A stretch of 64,000 nt of DNA, from NCBI GenBank assembly GCA_963855995.1, contig OY979727.1, positions 7,162,446 to 7,226,445 of the forward strand. The letters are read 5' to 3'. The notes under the pieces were generated by a model. The model did not search any database. It saw only the letters and a list, made by a program, of their open reading frames with translations, and was not told where the DNA came from. The position numbers and the translations under genes were made by a program. This document shows, piece by piece, positions 3,087 through 46,625 of this stretch (positions are counted from its first letter, which is position 1; the number at the start of each line of letters is the position of its first letter). This stretch comes from Muricea muricata. Taxonomy: Eukaryota; Cnidaria; Anthozoa; Malacalcyonacea; Plexauridae.

Positions 3087-3529
3087 TTAAGGTGGCTCCC
3101 TACGGTTTTAGTTATAAAGTGCATTGTAGCCGTTAAGACCGTCTCATTTCCACATCTTTCATTATAAAACTATGAAATTCAGTACAAGTGTTATTGAAGT
3201 CTTGCTGAAGATTTTAAAGTGGTGATTTTGCGCTAGAAGATTGTTGCCATGGCAACAAATGGATAAGAACACGGCTTGCGTTTCGTCTTCTTTCCGCAAT
3301 TTTCGAGATTTCCTTCGGTGAATTATTTTTTTATTGAACATGTTGTATGGTACTGACGTAAGGGTTTCACTTACACACTTTAAAAAATTTCCATGGATAG
3401 GTTTTTTTATTATCCTACAAAATGTCAAAAATCAATATAAAAAAAAATCCCTTCCATAAAATTTTTCGAAAAAATGACATTTCAAGCACTTGGGTACGGC
3501 GGCCCAGACGCGACAGCACAAAAACAGTT

Positions 3530-3970
3530 TTTATATTTTTGTATTTTTTGATTTTTGTATTTTTTGATTTTTGTATTTTTTGATTTTTGTATTTTTTGAT
3601 TTTTGTGTTTTTTGATTTGGTGTTTCTTGATTTTTGTATTTTTTGATTTTTGTATTTTTTGATTTTTGTGTTTTTTGATTTTTGTGTTTTTTGATTTTTG
3701 TATTTTTTGATTTTTGTATTTTTTGATTTTTGTGTTTTTTGATTTTTGTGTTTTTTGATTTTTGTATTTTTTATTTTTGTATTTTTTGATTTTTGTGTTT
3801 TTTGATTTTTGTATTTTTTGATTTTTGTATTTTTTGATTTTTGTGTTTTTTGATTTTTGTATTTTTTGATTTTTGTATTTTTTGATTTTTATATTTTTTG
3901 ATTTTTGTGTTTTTTGATTTTTGTGTTTTTCTATTTTTGAATTTTTAGATTTTTGTATTTTTTTATTTTT
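3530..3970. repeat. minisatellite, left arm (TTTTTTGATTTTTGTA-type unit)
   Basis: About 25 tandem copies of a 16-17-base unit with small variants (TGTATT or TGTGTT). The inverse array lies at 8490-8850 in the other arm. Confidence 0.95.
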
Positions 3971-4379
3971 GTATTAAATTAATCAAAGCTGGCTCAAAGT
4001 GGTCTCAGAATGTAAACGAGACGCTCGACTCTCTGGCTTCGGCCTCAAACTTTACGTCACACCAAGGAAAGCATTTCCAATTAAGTACAAACAACGCACA
4101 ACAATTTGCAACATTTTGAAACGATTCAACATGTAAAATGTTTCCAGATATTATATTTCATTTATTTTTATTTTCTCTTTCACGAAAATCTTTGAAAGTT
4201 TCCTGGAAAAATGTCATTTCTCGAATTTTCGAGAGGCTGTAGTCCCCTAGCCACCCCCGGCTGATACTATGATACGACACGTACGCCTATGATACTTCTA
4301 TATACAATAAATTTTTCAAAACTAGTTGTCAAACAGACATGTATGATGTAACTGCATCAGTACTAATTCTAGGGGCCAA

Positions 4380-6845: not shown

Positions 6846-7289
6846 GAGGCTATTATTTTATTAGATTTTTTAGATTCTTAAACGTTCGATAATGTCATTG
6901 TGATAGGTAAGTTTTAAAACTCTTGCGCTACTAAAAACATGCCCCAAATCGTTTCTCGTTTGCTAATGCAACAGCGTCCTTGCAATAGAAGTCCCATTTC
7001 TCCTTATCGGTCAACATAAGACAATCTTGTTGGGATGATCAATCCTGCAATCACAACATTTTTCCTCACAGAGCCTTCTAGTTTCTGAGACCACGGCCTG
7101 CGTACAAATCGTCTCGTTCAGTAGTAATAACTTTTTGTACTCAGCAACGAAAATGTCCTTTAAATAGTCTTGGTTTCATGTAAATGTCGTTTACATGAAA
7201 CGCGAATGAAACGTAAATAAACGTGCTTATACATACATCGATCTACTTCTAACGCCAAGTTGTAACTCCTTGTGCAACTTGTTTACATG

Positions 7290-7850
7290 TTTCAAACTTT
7301 TATTTTCAAACTTTTATTTCCAAACTTTTATTTCCAAACTTTTATTTTCAAACTTTTATTTCCAAACTTTTATTTCCAAACTTTTATTTTCAAACTTTTA
7401 TTTCCAAACTTTTATTTTTAAACTTTTACTTTCAAACTTTTATTTTCAAACTTTTATTTTCAAACTTTTATTTCCAAACTTTTATTTCCAAACTTTTATT
7501 TTCAACTTTTATTTTCAAACTTTTATTTTCAAACTTTTATTTTTAAACTTTTATTTTTAAACTTTATTTTCAAACTTTTATTTTCAAACTTTTATTTCCA
7601 AACTTTTATTTTCAAACTTTTATTTTCAAACTTTTATTTCCAAACTTTTATTTTCAAACTTTTATTTTCCAACTTTTATTTTCAAACTTTTATTTCCAAA
7701 CTTTTATTTTCAAACTTTTATTTTTAAACTTTTATTTTCAAACTTTTATTTTCCAAACTTTTATTTTCAAACTTTTATTTCCAAACTTTTATTTCCAAAC
7801 TTTTATTTCCAAACTTTTATTTTCAAACTTTTATCTCCAAACTTTTTTTA
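7290..7850. repeat. 14-base tandem repeat (CAAACTTTTATTTC/TT)
   Basis: About 40 copies, period 14 with occasional one-base slips. It is open in one frame only because the unit lacks stops there; that reading is not a gene. Confidence 0.95.
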
Positions 7851-7989
7851 AAATATTCGCACATCCCATGGTTAATATAGTTTATAGGTCGTATACAAAA
7901 CTCTCGAATTTGCTGGCGATATTATATAAATTATATGGATTACTTTTTAGGGAAAAAACATCATCATGCAATGTCGACATGCACCCTAA

Positions 7990-8225
7990 ATCAGAGCACG
8001 GATTTCAATAAGCGTTAGTAAAGGGTTAGTAACGCTGCTCGACTAATCCGAGCAGGGTATTTTAATGAGCGCGCGTTAGTAACACTGCCTGACCAATTCT
8101 TAATGAGCGTTAGTAATGCTGTTCGACCAATCAGAGCACGGTATTTCAGTGAGCGTTAGTAACGCCGCTCAACCAATCAGCAAGCAGCACCTCACTTGCA
8201 CCACCCTGCACCAGCAGAAAAAGGG
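7990..8225. promoter_or_regulatory. CCAAT-box repeat array (right arm)
   Basis: Inverse counterpart of the 4380-4640 array: GACCAATCAGAGCACGGTAT alternates with GAGCGTTAGTAACGC phrases. It is shorter than the left array, which shows that repeat number diverged after the arms formed. Confidence 0.5.
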
Positions 8226-8489
8226 TCGATTGACCCCTATATTGCTACTGATGCAGTTACATCATACACGTCTGTTTGACAACTAGTTTTGAAAAATTTA
8301 TTATATATAGAAGTATCATAGGCGTACGTATCGTATCATAGTATCAGCCGGGGGTGGCTAGGGGAGCTGCAGCCTCTTAAAAAAGTTTCAGGAAACTTTC
8401 AAAGATTTTCGGGGAAGAGAGAATAAAAATAAATGAAATATGATATCTGGAAACATTTTACATGAGGCCATTCTGAGACCCCTTTGATC

Positions 8490-8850
8490 AATTTAATATA
8501 AAAATACAAAAATAAAAAAACACAAAAATCAAAAAATACAAAAATCAAAAAATACAAAAAATACAAAAATCAAAAAATACAAAAATCAAAAAATACAAAA
8601 ATCAAAAAATACAAAAATCAAAAAATCAAAAAATACAAAAATCAGAAAACACAAAAATCAAAAAATACAAAAATCAAAAAACACAAAAATCAAAAAACAC
8701 AAAAATACAAAAATCAGAAAACACAAAAATCAAAAAATACAAAAATCAAAAAACACAAAAATCAAAAAATACAAAAATCAAAAAATACAAAAATCAAAAA
8801 ACACAAAAATCAAAAAACACAAAAATAAAAAAATACAAAAATATAAAAAC
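8490..8850. repeat. minisatellite, right arm (TACAAAAATCAAAAAA-type unit)
   Basis: Inverse of the 3530-3970 array, with about 20 copies, some of them the GTG variant. Confidence 0.95.
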
Positions 8851-9727
8851 TGTTTTCGTGCTGTCGCGTCTGGGCCACCGTACTTGGGCGATGGTAATTG
8901 GTGAGCAAAATTTTAAAAAAATTCACCGAAGGAAACGGGCAAAATTTACAGTTTAATTTCATTATATTTTTTTGCTTTGACGTCATAAAATTTTTGAAAC
9001 CAGTTTTTCACGCGTGGAGTCCAGCACATTTCGTGGACATCAACCAGAACAGCGAGAAATGCGTGTTTTTGATAATAGCCGTAGTATTTTTTCGTTTGAA
9101 ATTTTTGGTTTAGCCTTATTTAAGAAGAGATTAAAAGACATTCACATTGCCAAGAAGTAAAAACAAGACATAATAAGGCATAAAATCAAACCACTGCTTC
9201 TTAAATTTATTCTTGTCATTAAAAACCGATGTACGAAAATATTTTCAAAACTCATGACTGTATGCACGATAGTTATAAGACTATGTTATTAAAACACGAC
9301 AGACATCCGACCTTAACTAAACAAGAAAACTTACATAAGCTTCGGTAACATTTCAGAAGAGCCATGAAGTCGATAAAGACAATACAAAATGGTTCAGTCG
9401 GAGTCCATACACTTTCGTAAAATTTCGAGCAACAAAAATTACATTACCGGACATAAAAAAGCGCCTAAAAATTGTTTTAAAACTGATTTAAAGCACCTAA
9501 TACTTGAACTTGGAAACACAAGCGATTGTAAGGAAGAACTGTCGTCTTGTGACATGCCGTTTGTGTGTAGAAACACAAAAATATCGGCAAAAACAATGTT
9601 TTCAACTTTAAATGTGAAAAATTTTACTATAGCTGGCCACGAACATTCCACGCGTGATTCGTGCGGACAGCGTCTGATCTCTATAAATCGGGTTATAACT
9701 GAACAAAACCATAGGGAGCCACCTTAA

Positions 9728-10261
9728 GTGTTTGCTACTCCTGATAGTCCGCCATATTCCTGAGATCAGAAATGACCATCTTTCGTTGGTTGTGAAAGTT
9801 GCCAAATCTTTTTGCAAATATACGAAATATAGTAGTGCAATATAGTCCGCCATATTTTTGAGATCAGTGATGACCACCCACTCCCACTCACCGCCACCCT
9901 TGAGCCACGCGCCCGCGATATTTGATGAACTTCAGACTTCGCTGTGCTTTCCTTTTCCCGGGTGTAAATAGCCGTGCGGAATTAGTACCCTCGCCCCGGG
10001 CTAACGCCCGGAACGGCGCTTCGCGCCGTTGGCTCGGGAATTAAAGGATTTTGGGATAGAAAATGTTTAACTTAGCGTTGACTGATAACACTGCCAGCAA
10101 ATTCCGTACATCACTTTCCCTTAAAGTCAAGGCCATGCTTAGGCAGCTTAATGCGGAACTAGGGCATATATGTCAGGCAATGTGTGACTTGTTTAAAGCA
10201 AAATTGTTCAATTATTAAAAACCACTATTCTCATGTATTTACATTAATTTATTCCTTTGCG
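9728..10261. other. spacer with direct repeats and two GC-rich hairpins
   Basis: No gene is seen. The phrase 'agtccgccatatt..tgagatcag..tgacca' occurs twice, near 9747-9779 and 9846-9878. At 9995-10035 two adjacent GC-rich hairpins (CCGGGCtaacGCCCGG and AACGGCGCttcGCGCCGTT) stand out in this AT-rich DNA. The end of the stretch, TTTGCGCAG just before the integrase reading at ~10264, looks like a splice acceptor. Confidence 0.5.
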
Positions 10262-11176
10262 CAGACGATACGGAGGTCTTTGGTTGCTACAGATTTATTT
10301 TACTGGAATGGAACAGATTATGTTGTTGTAACAGATTCATTTTCTGGATGGTTTGAATTTGCTGTGTTGGGTAATACATCTTCTAGAATGGTAATTGGCA
10401 AGTTAAAGGAGATTTTTGCAAGATATGGAATTCCCGATGTGTTGTATTCGGACAATGGTCCACAATATTCGAGTGAAGAATTTCAAAAGTTTGCTCGTGA
10501 ATGGGGATTTAATCACGTGACAAGTAGTCCATACCATCCACAGAGTAATGGTTTGGCGGAGAGGGCAGTTCGTAGTGCTAAAGATTTGCTCGAGAAATGC
10601 AAGAGAGATGGAACAGATATAAACTTGGCAATGCTAAATCAGAGAAACACTCCACGTGATGAAGTTCTTGGATCGCCTGCGCAAAGATTGATGTCAAGAA
10701 GATTGAAATCCACAATCCCTTGTACTGATGATTTGTTGAAAAGTCAACAACTTGATGGCTCGTTGATTAAAGATCGTTTGAATCAAAAGCGAGAACAACA
10801 AAAGAAATTTTATGACAAGCAGACGAAATCTCTACCAGCGTTGGAAAATGGTGATGTGGTTCGAATGCAAACACCCAAAGGTTATAATCAACTTGGTTTC
10901 GTTATGCGTGCCGCAGAACAGCCTAGATCGTTCGTGGTAAAGTCGCAAGGTCAGGAATACCGGAGAAATAGAAGACATCTTTTAAAAGTTCCTGAACAAA
11001 ATCGGGATGTTATCAAAGAAAGGACGAATCCTGATATCAATAAAAATCCTATTGCCATTGAAGAAAAGTTAAATTCTGAAGGAACAGTGACGGATAAGTA
11101 TTCTAATGTATTAATAACTAGGAGTGGACGTGTATCCAAACCTAATCCTAAATATAAGGATTATCAAAGATATTGA
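10262..11176 (+). pseudogene. retrotransposon integrase, truncated at the 5' end
   Basis: DDE integrase core of a Ty3/gypsy polyprotein. The reading shows ATDLF (first Asp), SDNGPQ (second Asp) and NGLAERAV (Glu), with spacing consistent with DDX35E, plus SPYHPQSNG, which is typical of the family. The C-terminal part is basic and ends at a stop at 11174-11176, about 220 bases before the LTR. The zinc-binding HHCC domain and all upstream pol domains are missing, and the open frame before ~10262 is not protein-like. With no upstream part it cannot work as a polyprotein. The TTTGCGCAG directly upstream could let it be spliced to another exon, but nothing else supports that. Confidence 0.85.
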
Positions 11177-14475: not shown

Positions 14476-17400
14476 CTATTCTGTTTTATCTATATCCACC
14501 ATATTTTTATCCAAATTTCTTGTACAAACATGAAGTACCAAGTTAAAAACAGCCATAATTTGAAAGAGCAAGAAAGTATCATCCCATCCGTAAACTTTAC
14601 CAAATGTAGCAAACGGATACCCAGCTATTACAGCCCCAGCTGAAAAATAAAAGAAAATCATGTTGAACTAATTTATTTGCGATAGTATTCACACACACAC
14701 GCCCACTCCTCGTCACATTGCATGTGCAACTGTTGTACGTTTTCGGATTTTTTCCTATCTAACGAATGTCAAGATTTTGGAGTGGGATTAAGTTTATAAA
14801 GTAGTAAAGGTTTGGAAAACGTATTCGAGCATTTACTAGAGGGCATAAATTACTTGGTCCCAAGGCAGCTCTCTATTTTTTTTGCGCAAACATCACCCAG
14901 TGACCTGCATGATATTACATTCTTATACTAACGAGTTTCAATGCAAATCAAATTCTTCTGCTAACTGGAACTTACAGCTTGAACCCACAGCAACGATAGC
15001 ATGAGTTGTCCCGGAGAAACCAGTTGGCCCGTTTTCCATTGCCAAAAGGCCGTAAAGAGAAGTGGCGCCGTAAAGTGCCATACCGCAGCCAAACAATAAA
15101 ATTCCTACGAATAACTGTTAAGAAAAATCGGTATTAGTGTAATTAATAACTTCTTTAGTAAATACCGGTTTTTAACGATGCTGATTGGCGCCCTCCGCAG
15201 TAACTCTGAGACAACGATTTAGTACTGCTTAGATTATATGTAACTAATGTATTGATTTTCCAAAATAGCAGCCATTGTGATTGAACAATCTAACTGATTT
15301 GCAAGTTTGGTAACGTTTTTGTCGAAATATAGACCCGTAGTACCTCAGAGCTTTTCATTGTTTTTAGATGAGTGTATGTAGGTTAAACTTCCTGTATAAT
15401 TTTGACTTTTGTATTATTTGATTTTAACGTATGCATATGCGAGTTGAATAAATTTAATTCAGTTCTTAGGTAAAATTTTTTACATCAATAAACAATATTT
15501 TTATACATTGTTTGGTCAAAAGTTAATCAGTTTCTGTTTAGATTATAGAAATGATGAGTAGAATTAGATTGGATTTCTGTCTAATTGCTTATGCTGAGAG
15601 CATAAAAAACAAAACTATATAGCAAAATTACTTCTTTTGGATAACCTTTAGAATGTATTTGTCAATGTTATCCAATATGGTTAGAAAGTTGTTTTTCCTT
15701 AAAGAATGATTTTAAGACAAAATAAATTCACACAACACCTAATTTTTTCGAACGCCATGTTGATTTATTTAACTCGCCCTAGAGATTCTGCGGTGAAACT
15801 GGCGCATGCTCACACAAATTGCCCACCTATTCTGGGAACTAGGTTCCCAGGATCCGGTACTTTTAAACCTCTGTACATCTTGCTATATGCAAACAGACTC
15901 GCTCATGGTCTAGGGATAGTTTATTAAAACCAATAACGACAGTATAAGAATAAGAAGTAACCAGACAAAACTTTTGTGTTAAAAAGAAACAACGGTTCAT
16001 GGTTTAAACAATAAACAGGTTTCAGGTTCGAGTTAAACTTATTCCTTTTTTATCATTTATTGCACAAAGAGCCAAGATGTCATATTTTTACTGTAAGTCA
16101 GTCGTAGCTAGCCAACATTTCATTTGCTATGCCAGCTTCAACTGCATTATCATCATTCATTTCTTTCGAAATTTAATTGCCGATTGTTTTCACAGTCAAT
16201 CTGCATTTTCATAGCAGGACCACGCTACTGGTTGTACATTTGTGTTCCGATTTCTAGTTTGCTGACGTAATATAATTAATATAATAATAGGCCGTTTGCT
16301 GAGGCACAATATCGTTCATTTTCATTTAGCATGCGTTAGAACTGAAATATTTTCACCTTACCTCTTACATTCAAAGACACTGAACACGATTCCGAAGAGT
16401 TCCCGCTCCGTAGACCCGCAGTATTTTTTTAACGGCCATTTATATTTTCACTCTTTCGCCAAACAACATTCCATCGCCCGCCATTTTGAATTTTGTATAA
16501 CATCGGCCTAAGTCCTCTTATCTTGTCCCCAGCTTTTCCAATTCGTGACCGCGCTACGATTTACATCGATGTTTTTTGTTGAAATAAATATGGCGAAATG
16601 GATAAAGGCAGTGATTGTTGTAACGGCATTTGTGTAATTCATTTTGAGGGAAAAGAAGGCCAAATTAAATATTTAACGCAACAAACACTAGAGAAAATAG
16701 TAGAAAGAAGGGAACAGTGGCTGTGTCTATCATCGGAATATAAAGATTTCACGAAAGTAGCAAAAAGGTCATTTGAATTTATCCCAGAAAGTTTGAACGT
16801 TAATGACATTGCAAAAAACTATTTCTACCAATCCGCATGTTATCGCAATTTCACTGATATCAGTAAGCTTGAGAAGGCAAAAAGAACTTTGAGTAATGCA
16901 GGCACAAAGCGTCAAGGTGACAGCCCCAGCGGGGAGGAAGAAGTCAAGCCAACACCAGAAAAAGTATCCCGAACTACGAGACAATCTTTTGCAACTGCTC
17001 GTGCTACTTCGGCTTCTGGATCATCAAGTATTTTACCCAAGTCTTGCTTGATTTGTAAACGACCGGGACCAATCTTTTTTACAGATACGGTATTTTTTTA
17101 TGTTACATTGTATTCAGAAACTTACGCATTATGCACAATGATATAGTTGATCATCTGATTCATGAAATATGTTTTTTATAGGCGACAAAAAAAGTGTAAA
17201 ACAAGAACTATCAGTTGCACAAACGTTAACAGCTGGAATTTTGGAAAAGGCGGCTACGTTAAAAAATGATGAAAGTATACTATTGCATATTCGTGGAAAG
17301 GACTGTGTAGCTATAGAAGCACGGTATCACAAAAATTGTTACCAGAGGTATACGAAATGCGTTTCAAATAAATCAAGAGACCCTGGTCCGACCTTGTATG

Positions 17401-20400
17401 ATAGAGCCTTTGAAGAATTCTGCACCAGAATAATTGAGCCACGCATCATTAAAAATAAGGAGATTTTATTTCTCAGTTATCTATTAAAAACGTTCATCAG
17501 CTGTGTGCAGGAAATAGAACATATTGACGTACCCTGTCAGGCTTCCAGACTTAAAACCAGGATTGGAATGCGATATCCGCAAATCATTTTTCTCAATCTA
17601 TGAATAAAGGAACTTTTGTTTATGCAGATAGTGTGGTTCCAGGTGAAGTGGCTGATGATTTGATGGAAAAAAACAACAGTTCCCAAGATGACGATGACGA
17701 ATTCAATAGAGACGATCCATTAGGTGAAAGCATCCAAACTTCATCGCAGGTTAATGGCTGTGCTTTTCACGATTTTTTTTCAGTTGCAATGGAAATAAAA
17801 ACGCTTTTGCAAGAAAGTAAAGGCATAGATGCTGACTGGCCTCCTGATTCTCATGACCTAACTTTACGATCTGCCAGGGAATCGATTCCGGTGAAGTTAT
17901 ACAACTTCTTAGCATGGGCTATGGGGTTCTCTGACGAACCACTTTGTGAGGAAAGGGTGCAAATCAGTGTAAACGAGCAAACTAAACTAGTGTCGATAGC
18001 GCAGGACCTGATCTATGCAGAATCGAAAGGCAGGAAATTTACCCACGAGTCATTGGCTCTTGGAATGACCGTTCGCCAAATCACTGGATCAGTTCGATTG
18101 CTCCGTATATTGCATGTGTTGGGACATACAGCATCAGTGGATACTGTTTACAAGCATGACACTGCTTTAGCCATTGCCAGCAGCAAAGAACAAGATATTA
18201 TTATTCCACGTAATATTAACCCGGGCACGTTTTCCACAATTGTTTGGGACAACAACGACTTCGACGAAGAAACTGTTTCTGGGAAAGGGACTACCCATGT
18301 GGCGAATGGAATTATGTTGCAAAACGGGAACACAATCTTGAGTGATCGTGTCACTGTGAGTAAGTCGTGCCGTACTGTACAAGCACCAGAAACGTATATC
18401 GCACCTTACAACAACCGAGAAAAAGGAACCATATCTTTACGAAGCGAGAGTTCTGACATTTCCATTGAAGACAAAAGTCATCAAGATGAGCAGCAATTTG
18501 CAAGGAATGCTGATTTTGTGTACACATTATCGCGTAAGTACGCATCTGAGAGTGGGCTCTCTATTCCAGGATGGACCGGGCTCAACACGCAAGTGCACAA
18601 AGAAATTCCAACTGTCACAAACATTGGTTACTTGCCAGTGATCGATGCGCCAGTCACAGACTTGGCTACAGTTAATGCCTTACTCAAGCACAGTGTTTCT
18701 ATATGTCAACGCCTTCAACTTCCAGAGATTGTGCTGGTATTTGACGAAGCACTCTATGTCAAAGCGCAGATGCTAAGGTGGAAGAATGAAGAATATAAGA
18801 ATCGATTGGTGATTAGGCTGGGAGACTTCCACACCATTATGTCATTCTGCGGTGCCATAGCTAAAATTTTCAAAGATGCAGGACTGGAAGTAGGTTTTTA
18901 ATACCTCATAGTCCTTTCGTCCATCATGTTGTTTATTAGTTTGTGTGTTTGCTTGTATGTTCGCCTCCTATGAAATCATCCACTGAGCTAATCAAATAAT
19001 TATTCTTCTATTTTATGACAAATGCAAAGTGATCGACATAAAATTAACAATGTGCACTTTTCCAAATTGATATTTTAGGATATCATGATCGAATCAGAGA
19101 TAGTTGCCCCTGGATCTGTAAAAGGCGTGTTATCCGGGAAGCACTATAATCGCTTTGTAAGAGTTCACAAGTTGATTTATGAGGCAATGCAAAGGATGCG
19201 ATTTGAGGCATTCAAAAAGTCATTAGAAAGTTCTGCGTCCAGCCAGTTCGACTCAGTTGGTATTAGTGTTCTAGAGGATTCTGAGAGAGAATTGTTTATC
19301 GAAATCTGCACGAGCAAGCAACTCAATGATGTAAAAAGGGCTTACGACATGTTCGTGGAAAAACGAAGCGAAGAGAATCCTACGTTTGCCTTCTGGTCCA
19401 AATATATCGACATGGTTCAATTACTCTTACTTTACATCAGAGCAACGAGAACGTCAAATTGGAAACTACACCTAAGTTCACTGCGGTCAATGATTCCTTG
19501 GTTTTTTGCTACGGATCGAGTGAATTACTCCAGATACGCGCCGTGTTACTGGCTTGAAATGTTGTGTTTAGCGAAAACTCACCCCTGTAAGTGACGATCA
19601 CTATTTATTTTTTGTTGCTCGTGTACATTAAATTCTATTAGTAGATTTTCTTTTGAATCTTGAAACTAATTTTTCGTACAATAATCAAACGAGTCCTCTT
19701 TTTATGTTTTCTATGATTCTTGTAAAGATGTGGCAGCTAACATTGAAGATAATTGGACGGTACAACGTCAGAAGGAGTATGCTTTTTCAAGTGTGGCGTG
19801 TGATCAAACGATCGAACAGACCCTGAATAGGCTAGTAGTACCTTACTGTTGCCTTGAAAAAACCATCCAATCATAGCGATTTCGGGTTAATATAGTTTAC
19901 ACCAATACCATTATTGGAGTAACATCCATTTCTTTCTTGTTTTAAACAGGGATTCGAAAATGAAAGGTGGACTTGTGGGGATAACATTAAACAAGGGAGC
20001 AATGCATCGTTGGATATTGGGTCAAGCAGAAAGGAGTGCAATCACTAGACAATGTGAAGCCATGGCAAATGTCACTGATATCAAACGGTCAGTAACGAAG
20101 ATACCATTTAAAAACTTTCCATACAACAAGCAAGTGTAAAATGTCATTGTGCGTAATCTATCATACAAGTGCGTCATATGTTTTTGTATTTTGTATTGTT
20201 TTTCTTATGCATTTATTACAGAAATAAAATGATAAAAATTTCTTACCAAGGGTGAGGAAAGATTTAGACAAGAAAAGGATAACAGCAGACCAAAAAGCAG
20301 CTACAAATGTGATTCAGATTGTAGAGATGATGATAAATCCTTTTGACAATGAATACCAAGGATTGGTGCACTTAGCAAGTGGATCTGTGGCTACTGAGTC

Positions 20401-23400
20401 AGTAACCAGTGATATGAAAACCATGCACGAGAAAGGCGAATGTGCTGCAGTTGAGTTTATGGAGTCCAATATTGTAGGAGAAGAACCTGATATTTACACC
20501 AAGATAAAGAAGACGCAGTTACAGACATTCTCTCTTATTGGTAAGGAGGTCAATAGCAAAAGTAAGAAAGGTGAGATCGTGGCCCTGAAAAACTCAAAAG
20601 CACTTTTTGCAAAAATGCTTCTGATAGCCAAGAGTCGCAATTTGGAGATGAAGGAAGTGCTGACGTATTCTCTTCGGCCGTATCCACACCCATTGGCTAC
20701 GAATGAAGGTGGTCTCGTAAAGACTGTGAAAGCTAAATTACTCAACATGATTGAAAATGAAACAGAAGATGGTTCAGTTGACCTTCCGGTTGGAGACAAA
20801 GCATACATTTTTGACGCCATGGCGACATTACAAACATTGACAGTCCTCCCAGCAACATTTGGTGAACTTGCTACGAATTTGCTGGATAAGATCGTCAACA
20901 CTGGTGTTTCTTTAAATTTCAGTCGAATTGATTTCGTCTGCGACAGATATCCAGAAAAAAGCATCAAGAATTTGGAGAGGGATAAGCGTGCTGTGGATGG
21001 AGCTAATGTCATTCGTATATACAGTGAGCAACAGCGAGTTCCTCGGCAGTGGAAGAAATTTTTGGCTTCTGGAGAAAACAAAGAAGAAATTATGAAATTT
21101 ATTTTCAACTGCTGGAGAAATGCGGATCCACGTGCTCTGAAAGGCGTCGAAGTTTTTCTCGCACACGAAGACAAATGTCATAAGTTAACTGTGACAGTTA
21201 TTGGGCGATATGAGCTGCACTGAAATTGAAGAACTTTCTAGCGATCATGAGGAAGCGGACACACGCATGATTGCTCACGCAAGACATGCATCCCTGTCTT
21301 ATTCCAATGTCATCGTTAAGAGTCCTGACACCGACGTGTTCTTTATTGCACTGAACGCCACAAACGACATTTTTGCTAATTTGTTTTTTGAAACTGGGAA
21401 AGGAAATTCAAGGTGTATCATCTCGCTCAACAAGATAAAACAGCATATTGGAGAACAATGGTGTTCCTCGCTAATTGGCTTCCATGCATTTACAGGTAAT
21501 TAAACAGATTTACGTATACACATATGTGAATAAATAATCATTGAATAATATTTAGCATGATATTGGGAATTATCAAGGACAAGGTTGGAGTTATCCACCG
21601 CAGATCACGCCAGCGGGTAAAATAACGCGTCAGCTTCTGGATACAGTAATTTGACCAATCACGAACGAGAACAAAGTTCAAATGCATAATAATAATCATT
21701 ATGCGGTTATAACATGATTTCTCTTCACAGATGAACAGACTGTTGTTTTTTTTTTGCGAAAAAGAAGTCTTTGGATCCTGTCCGAGTGTTTCCCGCACAC
21801 GAAGGTCGCGACCTTTGTATTAGTACCCCAATGCTGTACCATATGAGCTACACGGTCAAGCTACATAGTCAATTCCAATTATATATCTTATATCAAATGT
21901 GAGATTTAAGTATTCAAGGCTTATCCTTTCTTGATAGGTTGTGACACAACAAGTGCTTTCCATGGAAAAGGCAAAGTTAAAGCGTTGAAAATCGCTTGGA
22001 CCAACGACGACTATGCAATTCTTTTTGGAAACTTGGGTAAAGCCGTCACAGTATCGACACAACTAAAAAATGGGTTATACGGTTTCGTGTGTCACCTTTA
22101 TGGTCAGGAAGGTTGGTCTGATGTAAATTCTGTCCGGTATGAAATGTTTAAAGGCGGCAAATACGAGGAAGAATTACTGCCTCCGAATCAAGATTCACTT
22201 GACAACCATATACGTCGAGCTAACTATCAATGCTACATCTGGCGACATGCCGTGCAGCCAATATTACGCCTGCCAGACTTTTGCAACCATGGTTGGAAGT
22301 TGGATGAAGAAGGAAATGTCACAATAAACTGGATGTCTTTTGCCCCAGCTCCTGACTCAGTTCTTGAGTTTGTCAATTGTCAATGCAAGAAAGGTTGCGA
22401 AAACAATCGATGCTCGTGTGCGAAGGCAGCAATGAAGTGCTCCGATCTCTGCAAATGCATTGGCTGCAAAAACAGTTCTACGAACATTACGGACAGTTTA
22501 GAGAGTGATTCTGACACATTTTCACCTGACCAAAGCAGTTCCAGTGACAATAGCAATGATGAAAATTAGACCTTTTTTATGTAGCCCGTGGGTGTCGCAA
22601 ATTATTATGCTGGGTCCTATATGTTCGAGCTGAAACTATACAGATTATTGTAAGGTGTTCATGGCTTCACGTTGATAGCTATAGATTGTATTTCCTTACA
22701 TCATATTTTGTAAATAAATGGCTAATCACCAGGTCCAATATTAGTCATGGCAGGTTGTTAATTGTAGGTATGTATGCTCCTGGTTGCCCTGATAACCAGT
22801 CAAAATTATTTATTTTAGTTCCGTTAGTTACTTTATTTTAAAGACGCAAAAGTTAATTTTGAGCTAATCTGTAGAGTTGTAAAATATGGAAATGTTTTGT
22901 ATTAAGGTATGATAAAGCATAATTCTAAGAGATAATAAATCATTATCAAATTCAGTCAAATAAGGAGCCTATAAACTCGTGACGGAAAACACTAATATTA
23001 GCCAAAAAAGCTAAAAAAGGAAAGCCACTAAAAACATCGACCTAAATCGTAGCGCGGTCACGAATTGGAAAGGCTGGGGACAAGATAAGAGGACTTAGGC
23101 CGATGTTATACAGGGTTGGTAGTTTGGCCTATTAGAGGCCAAATAACTCGATTTTGGCTTCTTTTTTTCTTGCTTGGCCTCAAAAAAAAAGTTTGGCTTT
23201 TTGGCTACTTTTTGGCCTCTTTCTATCTCAAAGTAATGCTTGGAAAATGTTTCGATCTTAGTTTGATTATATATGTTTAATCGTCATAATAATGTAGGCA
23301 TACTAATTGTGATATTAAAGGCATTTAGTATTCATGAGGACTTTTAGTATATGAGGATTATTTAGTATTCATGGAATAAATTAGTTGTGCTACGCAGTAC

Positions 23401-26400
23401 ACCAGACATCGCACTGGTTGTAAAAGAAAAGCTGAACAGTGTCAATACCCAAAATTATTAGGAATGAGTCAGGAATGAATGCGATAAATTTGGGCTTTTT
23501 AGCATTTATTTGGCTGCGTTAGAAAAACCGTAGTTTGGCCTCTTTTTGTAGATTTTGGCCTCTTTTTGCATAACTATTTGGCTCCAAGCATGCGCAGGAC
23601 CTACCAACCCTGATGTTATACAAAATTCAAAATGGCGGGCGATGGAATGTTGTTTGGCGAAATAGTGAAAATATAAATGGCCGTTAAAAAAATACTGCGG
23701 GTCTATGGAGCGGGAACTCTTCGGAATCGTGTTCAGTGTCCTTGAAAGTAAGAAGTAATGTGAAAATATCTCAGTTCTAACACATGCTAAATGAAAATCG
23801 CTTTCTAGACACTTTTTGGTGCCTCAGCAAACGGCCTATAAGAAATGTATAGGTATTATAATAGCAATTTCTTTTAAAAAAACCAAGAAATAAAGACAAA
23901 CACAAATTAAAAGAAACAAAATACAAATCACACAAACTGATTACATACTGTTGATGATGATGAATCGACGATTGTTCTCAGGATATGAACACAAGCCACT
24001 AACACCGAGAATAACCATACGAAAGCTGGTGCACGAGGACTAGAGCGCTTAGATGGGTCATGCTAAAAAAGTAATTGTATAGGGATACATAGTAAAATAT
24101 TAAATTGAGGCCACAGAACATGTTGTGAACTTGTTTCTAAGAAACTGAATCGTAATAGAAGTAATGGTTTTCTGGGGATTCTGTTGTTTGGTGGTCAGGC
24201 CACTCGCCTTTCACCTCTAAGATTCCGAGTTCGATTCCCAGTAAGGTGGATTTGAATCCAGTCTTTGCGTGAAAAGAGTATAATTAACCTTAAACTAATT
24301 AACCGGGTACTCGGTACGTAATACGGGCCCACAGTAATTGGCTCACGCTGTTGTTCGTTACGAACTGCAGAATGTCTCAAAATGGAAGCATGAAACTGAA
24401 CAAAAACAAGGAATTTATAAATGACACTTACTTAAAAGTACCCACAGACATATTTACCTTTTGCATCCATTTATCAGTTATAATTCCTGTCAAAAAGCTT
24501 CCAGCGATACCACCAATCTCAAAGAATGTCACAGCCAATCCAGCTGAAAAAGAAAGCAAATAATATACGGGTAAAATTTCGTTACACCATGGGAAACCAG
24601 GCAGGAAATACTGCTTGACTAAGGCACGAGCTGTATTATCGAAAAGCTTTGTCGTAATTTTGTCAAGAAATTGTTTAAGGCAGGGAACACAACTGAAACA
24701 TAGATATATCATCTATATATCAAAAAGTGAAGCCAGAAATCTCAGCGGTATCCCCTCATAACAATAGGCGACGGCCATATTGGTCTTTCCCACTCATCAA
24801 AAAATGCTAACAAGAACACTACACTTTTCTGCATTTGTGTCTTAAATACTTTTTAGCTGCTTAAAAGAGGACTTATTGTCAACTTTGTGAATTTCCGCAA
24901 TACAAAATACACAAATTATCATGCTCCGTGTCAACGACCAACGCCTACGATCTGGCTTAAATTTTCGCCTGCCCATACTGTCGGAAGCGCCATCTAGTGT
25001 ATATGAGTATCTATGTACTGAACCAAGAGTGGTAGTTGGGGGGGGGGTTATGCGGGGATGGAGAGGGGAAAAAGTGCAATAATAATTTACAGGTGATTTT
25101 CATATCACACGTTTAGATCACACACTGTCAGGATTGTCCCAATGAATTACTCCATAACTGTAGTTTGTTTAATGGGTCCATAAGTGTACCTGTTGACCGT
25201 GGTTGCCTCTTGTCTTGTATAAGATATAGCTGAGTCCAGTCACTAATTGCATTCTTCAATATGGCGGTTAAAAAATCTCCAACCAAAAGGACCCATAAAA
25301 AAGGACTTTGTAAAATTTGAAAAAGCACTTTACTCCAAGTGGACTGCGTGGCCTTACTCTTGGGAGTTAGGTTTTCTTTTGTGCTATCAATATCTAACCC
25401 AGCTTCTTTTGGGGAGTTACAAATCATCATGTAAATCAAGGGAGACGAGGTTATTGCTAGAAGACCAGGTAATCTCATTGAATACTGCCAGCAGTAATTT
25501 GACGTAACGTATATTGTTATTAGAGGACATAATCCAGCCATTATGTTTGCACCAATTGTCAAGAGGCTCCAGTATGTACCAAACTTAATAAAAAGTCAAT
25601 ACTGTGGTAAGGTGAGGTATTTTTAAATTAGCCTATTTATCAATAGCGACGGCATATTGAATCGCGATGCATTGTGGTCTATCCAGGGTAACCCCCCCCA
25701 CAATTTAAAAGCCGTTAGGATCACACCATACAGAAAAATATTGTGAGGAAAGTTTCTCTTTCTTGAAATGGAGACATGTTAATCAATTCTCAAGCATTTT
25801 GTACCATCAGTGTGCCTGTATAGCGTAGTGAATTTTTGAATTGACAGATTCCTTTGTTTTGTTAGTTATCAGAAGCTTTCTGTGTTATTTACAATAATAA
25901 AATCCCTTTTCCTTTCCATATATTTTTACAGCGGTTCAAAACTGTTGAATTACACTGGATAGGCCTTTATAATAATAATAATAATAATGCATTGCAATGT
26001 GCTCCAAATTCAAGAGGGTGTTGCTATTGTTAAAAACCTCAAATGTAACCGGAGGGTTGGGGTTTTAATACCTCATGCCACGCTGATGCTGCATGGGGTG
26101 ATCCGCAGAACATAGTGCACAATAGATAGCGTTTTATGGACTAGTCACCTATTAACAGATATTTGGGACATTTGGCGTGAACGTCCTTGACCAGCGGTGA
26201 TCCGAACATAATATATAAACCGGTTTCCGAATCAATATTCTATTTAATCAGGTTATTATGATCAGTATTCCTGAATAATTTTTCTTTGTATTTGGCCTTC
26301 TGTTTTATTGATCATACTAACGAGGGTTTGGTTTATTTATACTGCATAGTTTATTTATATGTGTCGCACGAACTTTGAGATGCTTTAGGAACTGGTTTCC

Positions 26401-29109
26401 CGTGAACGTATCTCAGCTTTCCACTGGAAATCTTACAGAAAACTGAGAAAACCGCACCTAGTTCTGCGAAAACTTCAATAATTGCTAAGCGGAGGATTTT
26501 AGAACAATCGAGGTGGGGTGTTGTCATAAATAATATGAAGACTAAGCTACCAAGTGAAATACACGTACGCACTTATAGTCTTAAGGCCCGTTTTCTACTT
26601 CAAACGTATCGTATTGTGTCCATATCATTAGTTCTACCTGACTGTTTACGTAACAATTAAATACGCTACGTTTCGCTGCAGTACGGTCGAAGTGGAAAAC
26701 GAGCTAAGAAATACAATAATCTCGGGGGATTCGAGAACCGTGTACAAGTTAGTACAATTGGAGTTAAGAGTATTTTTTTGGTTTGAAAGATGCACAATTT
26801 ATTGTTTTATTTTTAGGGTCTCAAACGCTATTTTTGGCATTTTCAAGCAGGTTTATGGATTATCCAAAGGCCACACATTGGTGATTTTTCTGCCCATTAG
26901 AAATTTAAACAAGAATCATACCCCACACTTTTTGCTTCAGATTTAGAAAAATCTCAAAAGCAATATGCAGTCCCCTCCCAAACAACTTCACTGCATCTAG
27001 TATGCATATTACTTAAATTGGATAATTATATTTCTTATTTGCTGAAATTAATTTATTCCCTGATATTGATATTGACTTTTACTCAACACCAACAATTACA
27101 AAAATATATACAAGACTAATATTTTAAACAGTGTATATGTGTGTCATATGCAAATATGGTGTATATAAATGCCAGAGGACCATTGATACCACTGCAGTTA
27201 GTCAAGTTTAATATATTCATGCCTAAATTTCAGGCTTTGTTATCATTCTCTTCTATTATTTTGGCAGAGGGCTGAACCATGCGTGGCACAAACTTAAGGA
27301 AACTTTTTAAGAGGGAAAGATGAGTGGTGAAACTACAGGTCTGGTGTAAGTGTATTATTACTTTATTCTTAAGGGTGTAGATCGATTACCAATCCACAAC
27401 AGCGGTGTGGAATCATATACTTACCATTATTTCTATGATCGAATTCACTGACCAAAATAAAAAATAAGTTGCAGGCTCAGCTCAAAAGTATCAAAACAAT
27501 TGCAGGCATAATTGCATACTTAGATATATATGCCACAATTATATACATATTGCATTCTTATGTGTACAACCCTAGTGTCATTGATTCCATCATATGTTTG
27601 ATATCAGCCCATCCCCAGTGCCTGGTGACTACCTTATGCTATGTAACTGCCCTGTGAATTCAGAAGTCAACATTAAATGTTCCAAATGAATTAACCTCAC
27701 ATCTGATAACCACTTAGTGCTTGAAACATGAAAGCACATGCATGCTGGCATCCACTGCCGTTAGGGCTTTAATTCTTTGCAAATATTTGATATGGGTGTG
27801 CTCCGAATAATAAATTTAAATTTTAAAAAATTTCAAAATTTTTCCAAAATAAATTCAAGGCTTAATCTCCCATGTGTGAATTAATCTAGACCAACATATT
27901 TTTTGGTCCCTTACAAAACACAAGCTGCCAAAAGCATTTCTGAGCCAGTTCCCAGCCTTCCTAAACAATCCTGAGCATTTTAACTTTTCAGAGTTTAGAA
28001 AACAAAAATGGGCAATTACAGTTAAGATAAAAATCTAACATGTGCTAAACACATGCATTGAAAGCACATGGCACATTGGAATTAAAAAGCTGTGGGGCTT
28101 TAATTCTGCTTAAATATTTCAGCTTGATAATAACAAAAATGTTATTTTTTAAATTGAAGGCTGCGTTGAAGACATATTTATATAATCCCATTCAGCCAGG
28201 ACCTAATGGCCGATATTGCCTGTATATATGTAATATATACAAGCTTATGTTCAGTACATGTTTATATGAGTTCCAAGCATTTGGTGCAGCTGGGATTTTG
28301 TTTCTCTGGGATCAAAACTCTCATATGAACACTCAATCATGGATCAATGGGTGCGCTTTGACATCAAAGCATGGCCAGTAATTGCATGCAGTAGTATGAT
28401 GTTTTTTTGTATGACATCTATCCTAAGCATGTTTTTTTTGTCTAAGTGAGGTAGAAAATACCCTGTGTTTTCATTATATAAACAGCTGCAAGCTAGCTAG
28501 ACCAGAGCTTTTGCAACATATTTGCTTGCATAGGCCTGCTCTGACCATGGGGGGGGGGGGGGGGCAAGAACTTTTTTAATAATATATATTACCAGTTACT
28601 ATTGATCTCTGCTGCTGAGCCCCACCCTTGTATTCCACCCCATTCTGGACAGGTGTCTGTTGTAGCCAAGTACCCACCTCATCAGGTTCAAACCAGACTT
28701 TCAATAACTTTGCACATTGTGGCCAAGCCAAGCCTTGAACCAAGCCGTTCACAAACCAGATACAGGACAAAAACCTCACGCCATCAACAAAAGTAAACAG
28801 TATGTTGCAAATTCCAGTAGCAATTAAACCAAATACGAATAGCTGCCGCGGTTGAAGTTTGTCTGATAAGACACCGCTTCCGAACTTACTCAAACCATAA
28901 CTGAGGGCAAACGCACTCGATATAAAACCAAGTTCACTCTCTTCTACAGACTGCGACTGCTTTAAGGCTGGAATTAAAGAGCTGTACGACTTTCTGTTGT
29001 AGTAAAATAGTGCATATCCGATAAATATACTCGCATATAACGTGTTCTTCAAGGCTTTCAATCGCTTGTTAACTCCAAATTTACTCTTTTTTGATTCGTC
29101 CATCACCAA
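14476..29109 (-). CDS. SLC37A4: SLC37A4-like glucose-6-phosphate translocator, 6 exons
   Basis: Major-facilitator antiporter of the SLC37/GlpT group, which in animals moves glucose-6-phosphate into the ER against phosphate. Exons on the minus strand: 29109-28678, 25583-25190, 24543-24458, 24062-23949, 15114-14976 and 14639-14476. All introns are GT-AG, and the joined length is 1329 nt (442 aa plus stop) without a stop or frameshift, close to the ~430 aa of vertebrate SLC37A4. Family-like stretches are GYALFYYNRKSYS in TM1, SYGLSKFGSGVLSDKLQPRQ in the TM2-3 loop, NGLAQG-like NGLVQGLAW, KVWFEPDE, and GFSGTTHAIVA near the C-terminus. The start could be Met1 or Met3. Intron 4 (15115-23948) holds a 7.5-kb antisense transposon. 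An AATAAA lies on the minus strand at 14415-14410. A MITE sits ~175 bases upstream of the start codon. SLC37A1-3 are less likely given the length. Confidence 0.9.
15115..16287. other. intron 4 sequence of SLC37A4 downstream of the nested transposon
   Basis: AT-rich intron with no recognisable gene or repeat. Confidence 0.6.
16290..16577 (+). repeat. left terminal inverted repeat of the 7.5-kb transposon
   Basis: Matches the inverse of 23031-23836 once the MITE is removed. It lacks ~20 bases just inside the outer 18 that the right copy keeps. It ends ~20 bases before the start codon, so it probably contains the promoter. Confidence 0.9.
16598..22569 (+). CDS. seven-exon transposon protein: C2HC zinc motif, FEN1/PIN-like nuclease region, C-terminal CXC domain
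   Basis: Exons: 16598-17054, 17182-18889, 19079-19586, 19728-19830, 19950-20087, 20251-21495 and 21938-22569. The phases agree. Intron 4 starts GC (AG|GCTAGT), the rest GT. Near the exon 1/2 joint CLIC, then YHKNC, forms a C2HC-type zinc motif. In exons 6-7 acidic motifs follow in the order of FEN1/XPG-like PIN nucleases: YIFDAMATLQ, DFVCDRYPEKSIK, DHEEADTRM, SPDTDVF, and GCDTTSAFHGKGK across the last splice. The end is Cys-rich (CQCKKGCENNRCSCAKAAMK then CSDLCKCIGC), like Tesmin/TSO1 CXC DNA-binding domains. Two frameshifts, in a T run near 17586-17591 and near 21197-21200, break this copy unless they are sequence errors. I know such proteins as multicopy genes in cnidarians and fishes. Mobility is inferred from the inverted termini. 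Confidence 0.75.
21560..21865 (-). repeat. tRNA-derived SINE-like insertion in the last intron of the transposon gene
   Basis: On the minus strand GTGTAGCTCATATGGTACAG resembles a tRNA A box with D-loop, and AAGGTCGCGACCTTCG about 30 bases on resembles a B-box region. The tail (to ~21560) has no poly(A). The whole lies within the 442-base intron. Confidence 0.45.
23031..23836 (-). repeat. right terminal inverted repeat of the 7.5-kb transposon, split by a MITE
   Basis: Inverse of the left repeat from AAAACATCGA at 23031 to CGGCC at 23836. It is interrupted at 23111-23612 by a hAT-type MITE. Confidence 0.9.
23111..23612. mobile_element. hAT-type MITE (502 bp) with 8-bp target duplication
   Basis: Ends CAGGGTTGGTAG and CTACCAACCCTG are perfect inverses, flanked by ATGTTATA on both sides (23103-23110 and 23613-23620). 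The uninterrupted sequence survives in the left terminal repeat of the host transposon (inverse of ATGTTATACAAAATTC near 16490-16510), which proves the insertion. Eight-bp duplications and CAGGG ends are typical of hAT. The interior is full of TTGGCC/TTGGCT phrases and has no ORF. Confidence 0.93.
24170..24400 (+). repeat. tRNA-derived SINE-like element
   Basis: GTGGTCAGGCCACTCGCC, then CGAGTTCGATTCCCAG about 15-20 bases on, resemble tRNA A- and B-box regions. The rest (ACCGGGTACTCGGTACGT) is a non-tRNA tail. It is in SLC37A4 intron 3; the boundaries are uncertain. Confidence 0.5.
25584..28677. other. intron 1 of SLC37A4
   Basis: AT-rich intron with a short (AAT)n run near 25970-25987, a MITE-like inverted repeat at 26580-26705 and a G16-type homopolymer at ~28549-28564. 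No gene is seen. Confidence 0.7.
26580..26705. mobile_element. small MITE-like inverted repeat
   Basis: TTAAGGCCCGTTTTCTACTT at the left is matched by the inverse AAGTGGAAAACGAGCTAA at the right, with several mismatches. Total ~126 bp. No target duplication was established beyond the TTAA/CTAA-like ends. Confidence 0.5.
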
Positions 29110-29282
29110 TTGCTCTGAGATTTACGAAATGGAAAAAGGAAAACCATCAGTGTTCGAAAAAAGTAAAATCTAAATCAGGCAATATTTTACGCTGACACTT
29201 CGCAGGAATTGTCAAACAACTACAACCGGGAAAATTCACAAGGGAAATTCGTGCGTTAAAGTGGAAAGACTGGCATTGTATT

Positions 29283-36125: not shown

Positions 36126-36255
36126 TAATCCAGAATATAGCTGCATTGTGTTAGTTGGTGATTTCAACCTCCCTTACATATCGTAGCCTGACAGTCAGTC
36201 AACAACCCCTGTCAACAATGGTGGATGTGCAAATGCTGAAGATCTCTGCGAACTT

Positions 36256-38643
36256 GTGGGTGATAATTTTCTTCACCAGTTTATAGAAGGCTCAACCCAT
36301 CGCGCTGGTAATAAGCTTGACTTATTATTTTGTAATAATGCAGAGAATATATGCGATGTATTAACTTTTTCCTCTGATGAACACAACTTCCCTACTGATC
36401 ACCACATTATAAAATTCAGCATCCGTACAAAATTTACAAAAGCAAAACCTGTGCGACGTGTTGTCTTTGACTACAACAAAACCGACTTTTCCGCATTACG
36501 TAGAGCCTTGTCAGAAGCAAAGTTGGACGTACCCTTTGCGAATAACATGGATGAATGCTGGGAGCAGTGGAAACGCACATTTTTATCTATCGTGACCACT
36601 TTTGTCCCGACCAAACTTGTGCCGGATACCAACTCCCCTCCTTGGATTGATGGTGAAGTTCGTCACCTAATTTGCAAGAAATATACCGCTCTGCGACATT
36701 ACAGGAAAAATAAAACATCTGCACGAAAGATTAAACTGCGAAACCTGTGTCAAAAAGTCAAGTATGCAATCAGGAATAAACATAAAATGTACATTGCTAA
36801 GATCGAAGCATCGTTTAAAGACAACCCCAAGATGTTCTGGAGCTATCATAAAGCTATACTTCATCACCGATCCACGACAAACCCCGTAATAACCTTCAAA
36901 AACCATACAGCAACATCTCCTAAACAAAAAGCAGAACTTTTCAATACCTATTTCTGTTCTGTCTTTCGTCCTGCACAATCTACGGAGATTAACGAAGCAC
37001 CCTCTTCTTTGCTGACCTCGGCTTTGTTGTCTGATATCTCCATCTCAGAGGAAAAAGTTGTTCACCATCTTTGGAACCTGGATCCATCTAAATCTCCTGG
37101 ACCAGACAATATTCCTGGTCTCATTCTAAAGCAATGTAGCATTGCCATCGCTCCTAGTCTTTGTTCACTGTTTAATCACTCTCTTAAAACTGGAACTCTA
37201 CCTACTGAATGGAAATCTGCAAATGTTACACCAGTTCACAAGAAAAATAAGAAGGAACCTGCTTCTAACTACCGCCCAATATCCCTACTTCCCCTCATCA
37301 GTAAAGTCTTGGAGCGCTGCGTTTGCTATCGTTTCTATGATCATCTCCATGAGATAATAAACAAAGCACAATACGGATTTCTTCACGGTCGTTCATGTGT
37401 TACGCAACTTCTTACCACCTTACATCACGTTGGACAACTACTAGATAATAACGTTCAGACAGATATTATCTTTCTTGACTTTGCTAAAGCCTTTGATTCC
37501 GTCGATCACATCATCTTATTAAAGAAACTTAAGTCTTACGGTATCTCAGGCAACATGTACAATTGGTTCACTGATTATCTGTACGGACGTAAGCAGCGTG
37601 TCGTTGTAGATGGCGTAGCTTCGCGATAGTCTCAAGTCACCTCTGGTGTCCCTCAAGGCAGTATCTTAGGTCCTGTGTTCTTCCTTCTCTTCATCAATGA
37701 CCTCCCTGACACCATTCCACCACCAACGTCGACCGGATTGTATGCGGACGATACAAAACTGTATAATGCAATAAAATCAAGCCACGATTGCGATCACTTA
37801 CAGCAAGCATTATCTTGCGCTGACGATTGGAGTAAGCAATCCAATATTGACTTCAACGTCTCAAAATGTAAAGTCCTGACCATTTCCCGCCGAAAAAGCC
37901 CAATTGAGTCTAAGTACCGTCTTGACTCAACAGAACTGATGCGTGTGGATAGCGAGGTTGACCTCGGAGTGACTGTAACCAGTAAGTTATCTTGGAATCA
38001 ACATATCATCCTAACGGTATCCAAAGCAAATAAAATGTTGGGACTATTACGAAGAACCTGCCCCTTGTTAACGAATCGTGACGCTCGAAGAACATTATAC
38101 CTATCCTTAGTGAAATCTCAGATGTGTTATGCCACAGAAATCTGGTCACCGTCCCAGTCTACCTTTAAAATCAACCTTGAGAGAATTCAAAGACGGGCTA
38201 CTCGATGGATTCTTCAAGTAAAGATAGGAGACGCCCCCTACAAAGATCGTTTGTTGGCTGTTAGTCTTCTGCCCCTATGTTACGACAGAGAAATAAAGGA
38301 CTTAGCATTCTTTTTTAAAGCTATGTACGGGTACTTTGACTTAAATGTCTTTGACTATGTATCAGTCGTAGGCCATAGTCGGACGCGAAATTGTGTAAAC
38401 CCTAGCTTAATGCTCAAAGTACCATCGTGTAAAACAAGTACATTCCAGTCTTCATTTTTTAATCGCATCGTACACCTTTGGAACATTGTGTGTAGAACTG
38501 CTCGGCCATCAGACTTACGTAGTCTAACTAGGTTCAGATCATTTTTATCAAGAACATATTTACAGTTACTACTTTCTTGTTATGATGTAAACATGACCTG
38601 TACGTGGTCGTTATATCGTACTTGTTCATGTCATAGAGTTTAA
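36256..38643 (+). pseudogene. LINE endonuclease end plus reverse transcriptase, one internal stop
   Basis: The reading starts in the endonuclease (last His in PTDHHIIKF). It then shows the RT core: SPGPDNIPG, NYRPISLLP, the palm-Asp motif FLDFAKAFDSVDH, SGVPQGSILGP and YADDTKL (catalytic DD). A TAG at 37627 falls just before SQVTSGVPQG, splitting the RT; the frame then runs on to 38643. The C-terminal part has IWSPSQSTF, RIQRRATRWI and FNRIVHLWNIV, the usual LINE tail. No RNase H is seen. With the stops it cannot give a full protein. Confidence 0.9.
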
Positions 38644-45497: not shown

Positions 45498-45537
45498 TAT
45501 ATATATATATATATAATATCTATATATATATATAATA

Positions 45538-45626
<89 letters not shown>
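45498..45626. repeat. (TA)n microsatellite
   Basis: TA tract between the Tc1/mariner element and the left arm of the 15-kb palindrome. Confidence 0.97.
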
Positions 45627-45703
45627 GTAAATCACCAACCCTCCACCCCAATTCCATAACATCATGTAAATAAATCACCAGTAGAATCGTTTTTCAATTT
45701 TTA

Positions 45704-45742
45704 TTATTTTCAACGTTTCGGGGCAAGCCCCTTTCTCAAGAA
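45704..45742 (-). other. degenerate hammerhead-like motif, left arm
   Basis: The minus strand reads TTGAGAA, a GGGGC/GCCCC stem, then CGAAACGTTG. It keeps the stem II-GAAACGTT layout of Penelope-associated hammerheads but the CUGANGA box is altered. Confidence 0.45.
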
Positions 45743-45792
45743 TACATACAATGGCAATCTAAGGTACTTTTATAGCTAATATTATGAATTAA

Positions 45793-46035
45793 TTAGTCAA
45801 AGTCTCGTACATTTAATCCTTTAGGCACAAACGTATCCAATTTATAAGCCCAAAATGCCTCCCTCTGAGTTGGATTTTCTTTGTTTGTTTTGTCAATAAT
45901 AATCACACGAATATCACTTAAACCATTATGCCCAGGGCCAAAGAAATGTGCATACAAATGCTCTCCAGCCATCTTTCTGCCCCCTTGCTCATACTTTCTC
46001 AACGAACTTTTATGATTATTAAAACGCTTTCTAAA
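45793..46035 (-). pseudogene. Penelope-like element GIY-YIG C-terminus, left arm
   Basis: The reading ITSFRKRFNNHKSSLRKYEQ leads to AGEHLYAHFF, then QREAFWAYKL and FVPKGLNVRDFD before the stop, the end of a GIY-YIG endonuclease as found after the RT of Penelope-like elements (REaFW and P.GLN are family hallmarks). The GIY and YIG strands themselves are missing because the fragment begins at the junction with the PolB element. It belongs to a family different from the element at 61-63 kb. Confidence 0.75.
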
Positions 46036-46139
46036 TGATGTTATGAGTAGTAATATAGGTACCGATCAACCCCCTTTTTTGAGGGGGCGCGAGGGTGTAC
46101 GAGGGGGCGCACACATATTGAGGGGGCGCACCCTCATTA

Positions 46140-46625
46140 GAATATCGTGCCCTGATTGGTCAAACAGCGTACGTACACCCTGTGACGTACACACCGTGGC
46201 TGCGCGAGGTTGCGTGAGGCTGCGCGAGGTTGCGCAAGCCTCCACAGGGTGCCGCACTAATTAGTATGCGAGAATGTCGCGCGCTGATTGGTCGAAAAAC
46301 GTACGTACACCCCGTGACGTACACACCGTGACGTACACTATAGCCGTGCTCTGATTGGTTAAAACAGCGTACGTATACCCCGTGACGTACGCCATAACCG
46401 TGCTCTGATTTGTTAAAACAGCGTACGTATGCCCCGTGACGTACGCTATAGCCGCGCTCTGGTTGGTTAAAACAGCGTACGTACACCTCGTGACGTACGC
46501 TATAGTCGCGCTCTGATTGGTTAAAACAGCGTACGTATACCCCGTGACGTACGCTATAGTCGCGCTCTGGTTGGTTAAAACAGTGTACGTATACCCCGTG
46601 ACGTACGCCATAGGCGCGCTCTTTT
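46140..46625. promoter_or_regulatory. subterminal array of ~57-bp repeats with CCAAT and TGACGT boxes (left)
   Basis: About seven units of the type CTGATTGGTTAAAACAGCG, then TACGTA, CCCCGTGACGTACGC. Each carries an inverse CCAAT box and a TGACGT (ATF/CREB-like) half site. Outside it lie three GAGGGGGCGC phrases at the element's edge (46077-46130). It looks like a repeated promoter or enhancer; ORFs across it arise from the repeat period (57, divisible by 3). Confidence 0.55.

Follow-up and report, generated by a model that had tools for sequence, protein, structure and literature searches.

A 64,000-nucleotide stretch of the genome of the cnidarian Muricea muricata (assembly GCA_963855995.1, contig OY979727.1, positions 7,162,446 to 7,226,445 of the forward strand; hereafter the window) contains a DNA transposon that has moved and whose single gene encodes a 1597-residue protein with two predicted active sites. 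The N-terminal half is predicted to be an RNase H domain of the DDE type with an all-helical insertion, and modelling supports the assignment of the C-terminal half as a FEN1/XPG-type nuclease followed by a CXC domain. We consider it likely that this architecture (zinc-finger-like region, DDE domain, FEN1/XPG nuclease and CXC domain) represents a new family to be filed as AcademX-type. The original prediction had recognized the transposon, its gene and the nuclease and CXC regions, which are borne out below. It had also held that the element lacks a DDE transposase and uses the nuclease, or another mechanism, in place of DDE chemistry; these two points give way to a predicted RNase H domain in the N-terminal half, with a D..D..E set that is conserved together with the nuclease acids and is modelled nearest to P-element transposase.

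The inverted termini at 16290 and 23836 agree exactly in their outermost 18 bases, or in 21 when the adjoining ATA/TAT is counted, and the arms match across ∼290 bp with 95–96% identity in two long blocks, so that both the arms and the exact 18-mer of the original prediction are confirmed by alignment and by a search of the window. In that search, with up to three mismatches allowed, the 18-mer was found only at the two ends of the element (0.02 occurrences expected). The right arm is split by a hAT-like insertion of 502 bp, which is missing at the corresponding end of a second genomic copy. Boxes resembling the CHR motif, considered in connection with the CXC domain, are sparse in the termini by plain count.

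The exact 18-mer occurs four times in the 453 Mb genome, at the ends of two elements. The second copy spans 10,017 bp from one GGCC end to the other, is 97% identical to the window element in the main blocks and carries a ∼3 kb insertion in mid-element as well as an in-frame stop. A search of the genome with the left-end DNA gave 40 scored matches, part of 321 candidates. Five of the 40 are ends of these two copies and six are ends of three 6.46 kb elements, which are 98–99.5% identical among themselves and encode a protein ∼60–65% identical to the window protein in the larger blocks. The second copy and the 6.46 kb copies carry the gene between such ends, as expected for a transposon family whose gene travels with its termini. 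The 25 other places examined comprise 18 two-ended elements of 2.3–2.4 kb (L030, L032, L047–L049, L052–L058, L060 and L062–L066) and seven one-ended matches that were not counted (L031, L036, L046, L050, L051, L059 and L061); spurious inner pairings in L027, L028, L029 and L066 were likewise not counted. The ends of the 2.3–2.4 kb elements resemble TAGGCCGTTTGC and are ∼71% like those of the window element across 203 bp, and 3 bp duplications flank 16 of the 18. No match to the gene was found in the five of these elements that were tested, L030, the one checked for open reading frames (ORFs), has none of 100 residues, and the elements are apparently non-autonomous. The remaining four matches lie outside this set, three at C5:9.73 Mb and one at C1:26137875. 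The former three (G000:C5:9728681-9735862) are on the same strand and ∼3.5 kb apart, as if in a tandem array of the element or its end.

An identical trinucleotide lies directly outside TAGGCC and GGCCTA in 20 of the 23 two-ended copies (20 pairs, the window element, its second copy and L028), with a probability of ∼0.02 for a 3 bp match by chance. The trinucleotides vary (AAT, CAA, CAT, ATG, TGA, GGA and others), being TAA in the window and TAT, inside an AT run, in the second copy; the misses are L029, L055 and L060, the last two with a worn TA on one side. Because this identical but varied trinucleotide lies outside TAGGCC/GGCCTA, the target duplication is 3 bp long and TA is part of the transposon end. 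Among the 20 pairs, TA adjoins GGCC on both sides in 18, and the variable outer 3 bp are duplicated in 17. A TA target duplication of the Tc1/mariner type was ruled out on this pattern, TA being fixed beside GGCC and the outer 3 bp varied and duplicated. The TA noted on both sides of the element in the original prediction is present but is not a target duplication, and the genome search that it proposed did recover copies with the same ends, flanked by duplications of 3 bp rather than of TA.

The gene runs from 16598 to 22569 between the inverted termini and has seven exons as proposed, although the 1597-residue reading bridges two frame changes (Table 1) and assumes a GC splice donor at 19831; splice sites were picked by reading frame and homology. 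Owing to these frame changes and the GC donor, the window copy is broken, and so is the other copy of the window family. Read across the frame changes, the window protein retains all 11 highly conserved D/E positions, together with the acidic motifs and CXC cysteines listed in the original prediction. The two copies differ by 63 coding changes (14 synonymous and 49 not; ratio 0.94), which, judged from these counts, is the pattern of neutral drift. Between the window family and the 6.46 kb family pN is 0.20 and pS is 0.74–0.75 (saturated); the protein was therefore constrained while the two families diverged.

In the predicted model, the part encoded by exons 2–4 forms a DDE-type RNase H domain with a D..D..E set, and structure comparison gives P-element transposase as the best fold match of the N-terminal half. 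The nuclease half is modelled confidently as a PIN-like fold bearing the metal-binding acids of the FEN1/XPG type, all intact, and its fold matches include FEN1, Exo1 and GEN1; structure prediction had been suggested as a check of this region and agrees with the nuclease first proposed. The nuclease half is predicted to resemble FEN1, Exo1, XPG and GEN1 in its fold, in its metal-binding acids and in having their Lys/Arg helix motif, but differs from them in being an internal domain of a transposon protein, with no free N-terminus and with a CXC domain after it. The CXC region of the window protein has nine cysteines, as in the CXC (tesmin/TSO1, MSL2) pattern. Its TCR and MSL2-CXC Pfam matches are under the cut-off, TCR is above the cut-off in two of six homologues, and a profile search found LIN54 at an E value of 8e-4. 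Pfam scans of the window exons, the six homologues and 32 aligned homologues gave no match to any DDE or XPG model; the matches seen were to TCR/CXC, to DUF6589 (in four of the 32 aligned homologues, best 8.5e-9 in P0051 at 690–908) and stray weak ones, among them Mut7-C RNAse in one member only (E = 0.0026). No helicase domain was found in the scans of the window protein and the six homologues, and a single-sequence search of the PDB gave no match.

A protein search returned 57 homologues with 23–46% identity, the better ones aligning across 80–100% of the length. Those with names come from fishes, echinoderms, a hemichordate, a tunicate and cnidarians and are mostly uncharacterized or hypothetical predicted proteins. 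A second search, with a divergent member as the query, gave 346 matches, of which the 120 listed were used and include a sponge protein. P0057, a fused prediction, was left out of all alignments; P0043 was left out of alignments A1 and A2 (55 of 57 used) and retained in the alignment of 173 homologues. The latter has 990 columns with at least 140 letters, of which 34 are in majority D or E. At 97% identity or more there are 50 columns of any kind, and 11 of these are D or E (D510, D513, D675, D918, E922, D1161, D1204, D1309, D1332, D1334 and D1390 in window numbering), spread over both halves. Nine chosen acidic sites are spanned by 143 of the 173 proteins, and D or E is found at all nine in 139. 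The two halves diverge in step (r = 0.95 for 152 of the 173 proteins, equalled in none of 500 permutations). In a tree of 172 of the 174 rows, the window protein groups with soft coral P0015 and Hydra P0038 with a support of 0.98. Pattern and tblastn searches confirmed no relatives among 96 stretches from viral contigs or among 33 from prokaryote genome contigs.

The AcademX lineage of the Academ superfamily, reportedly defined in a 2020 paper by Kojima, has a nuclease of the XPG type, and a combination of DDE transposase and nuclease has probably already been catalogued under this name. Academ is counted among the DDE/D superfamilies, its curated elements averaging 5.6 kb (PMC10294476), and its duplications are given as 3 bp in PMC5199201; in PMC10045372, duplications of 3 or 4 bp are given for AcademX and of 9 or 10 bp for AcademH, and are linked to the encoded nuclease or helicase. 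With AcademX the present element shares the predicted DDE transposase and nuclease, the terminal inverted repeats (∼290 bp here) and the duplication length (3 bp here, 3–4 bp there). This likeness is to the published description of AcademX. AcademH, as published, is placed in the same superfamily and likewise joins another DNA enzyme to its DDE transposase, but that enzyme is a helicase and the duplications are 9–10 bp long (PMC10045372), in contrast to the 3 bp and the helicase-free Pfam scans here. The words Academ and XPG were not found in PMC5718144 or PMC7805219.

Movement would be by cut and paste, with all domains in a single protein. From the predicted fold and the 3 bp duplications we infer that the DDE domain would expose the 3′ ends and attach them to phosphates that lie 3 bp apart on the two strands of the target. 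Next, the nuclease would sever the non-transferred 5′ strand, or a 5′ flap, where the transposon ends, and this would either free the element from the donor DNA or trim the joint for host fill-in of the 3 nt gaps, while the zinc-finger-like and CXC regions would hold the long inverted ends. In the TnsA/TnsB system of Tn7 a DDE enzyme cuts one strand and a different nuclease cuts the other; a similar division of labour may exist here, although TnsA is a separate protein and not a nuclease of the FEN1 type. A nuclease acting as second-strand or flap cutter beside a DDE domain that nicks and joins the 3′ ends would make the protein a one-chain eukaryotic analogue of TnsA/TnsB. We hold this reading tentatively and with some doubt; if it is correct, both active sites would be needed for simple insertion. 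Alternatively, the DDE domain may make all of the end cuts and the nuclease may act elsewhere, in donor-break trimming, on branched intermediates after movement or in replication of the element, a reading with a substantial chance of being right, if short of an even one. The range of its fold matches is consistent with this, since flaps, ends and junctions are the substrates of FEN1, Exo1 and GEN1, and the added helicase or nuclease of related elements has been suggested to go with duplication length (PMC10045372). However, the fusion in one chain, and the fact that 139 of 143 proteins retain both sites, suggest that the nuclease takes part in a core step.

If the superfamily had no DDE chemistry and the FEN1/PIN-type nuclease alone moved the transposon, this would fit the confident model of the nuclease half and its intact acids. 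The missing Pfam DDE match and the lack of any significant transposase match in Foldseek also favour this reading. Nevertheless, the other half has a predicted RNase H topology and a D..D..E set as invariant as the acids of the nuclease half, and short duplications of fixed length are of the kind made by DDE enzymes; a DDE-less transposon, which we find very improbable, was rejected on the predicted RNase H fold and the conserved D..D..E. That P-element transposase is the nearest fold to the DDE half could also point to a P-element-like lineage outside Academ that gained its nuclease independently. This is unlikely: interrupted RNase H folds are found in several transposase superfamilies, and P elements make duplications of 7–8 bp (PMC5199201), compared with 3 bp here. 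P-element transposase is not known to have a flap nuclease. Finally, since named homologues are mostly uncharacterized or hypothetical, one might suppose a host gene family lying by chance between inverted repeats. That idea is scarcely credible given the neutral difference between the two window-family copies, and was rejected on the recurrence of the gene between such ends at unrelated places with 3 bp duplications. On the preferred reading of an AcademX-type element, a widespread and mostly uncharacterized protein family (fishes, echinoderms, hemichordate, tunicate, cnidarians and sponge) would become one of transposases with two predicted active sites, Pfam DUF6589 would be tied to the DDE half, and the reason for a transposase to have its own flap nuclease becomes a testable question.

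Table 1. Features of the transposon and its gene (positions in the window; residues in window-protein numbering)
Feature	Position	Strand	Remarks
Whole element	16288..23838	+	Ends TAGGCCGTTTGC...GCAAACGGCCTA; 7551 bp including nested insertion, ∼7.04 kb without it
Target-site duplication TAA, left copy	16285..16287	.	Flanking bases; 3 bp rule from genomic copies
Target-site duplication TAA, right copy	23839..23841	.	Flanking bases; 3 bp rule from genomic copies
Left terminal inverted repeat	16288..16579	+	
Right terminal inverted repeat, outer part	23613..23838	-	
Right terminal inverted repeat, inner part	23027..23110	-	Cut off by nested insertion
Nested hAT-like non-autonomous insertion	23111..23612	.	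502 bp; 12 bp inverted ends CAGGGTTGGTAG; duplication ATGTTATA
8 bp duplication ATGTTATA of nested insertion	23103–23110 and 23613–23620		
Exon 1	16598..17054	+	N-terminal region; first half of C..C..H..C zinc-finger-like motif
Exon 2	17182..18889	+	Frame change near 17591; second half of zinc-finger-like motif; RNase H strands
Exon 2 residues	within 17182..18889	+	Candidate catalytic D510/D513 and D675; invariant H704
Exon 3	19079..19586	+	Portion of helical insertion in DDE domain
Exon 4	19728..19830	+	DDE helix with D918/E922 (E922 candidate third catalytic acid); GC donor after
Exon 5	19950..20087	+	End of DDE region
Exon 6	20251..21495	+	Frame change near 21190; linker, FEN1/XPG-like nuclease
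Exon 6 nuclease residues	within 20251..21495	+	D1161, D1204, K1212, R1219, E1307, D1309, D1332, D1334
Exon 7	21938..22569	+	Nuclease D1390 (GCDTTS), helical part, nine-cysteine CXC domain, acidic tail

The remainder of the window holds several other features. To the right of the element, two ORFs of the MFS transporter family on the minus strand (25131–29121) are perhaps exons of a host gene. An integrase (rve) ORF lies at 10163–11173, and a LINE-like reverse transcriptase extends across two adjacent ORFs at 36187–38640, the first of which was scanned. In translation, the long repetitive tracts at 3418–3973 and 7210–8953 give repeats resembling KNTKIKKYKNQK or FIFKLLFSNFYFQT. A region of ∼15 kb (45535–61125) has long inverted arms that are 99% identical (2006, 1256, 1035 nt and more) and contains a YqaJ-recombinase ORF (52284–54455) and a Harbinger-like DDE_Tnp_4 ORF (56001–56822). 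It is followed at 61357–64000 by two head-to-head Penelope-like ORFs, the proteins of which are near-identical close to their starts; the first encodes a reverse transcriptase and a GIY-YIG domain and the second extends past the window edge.

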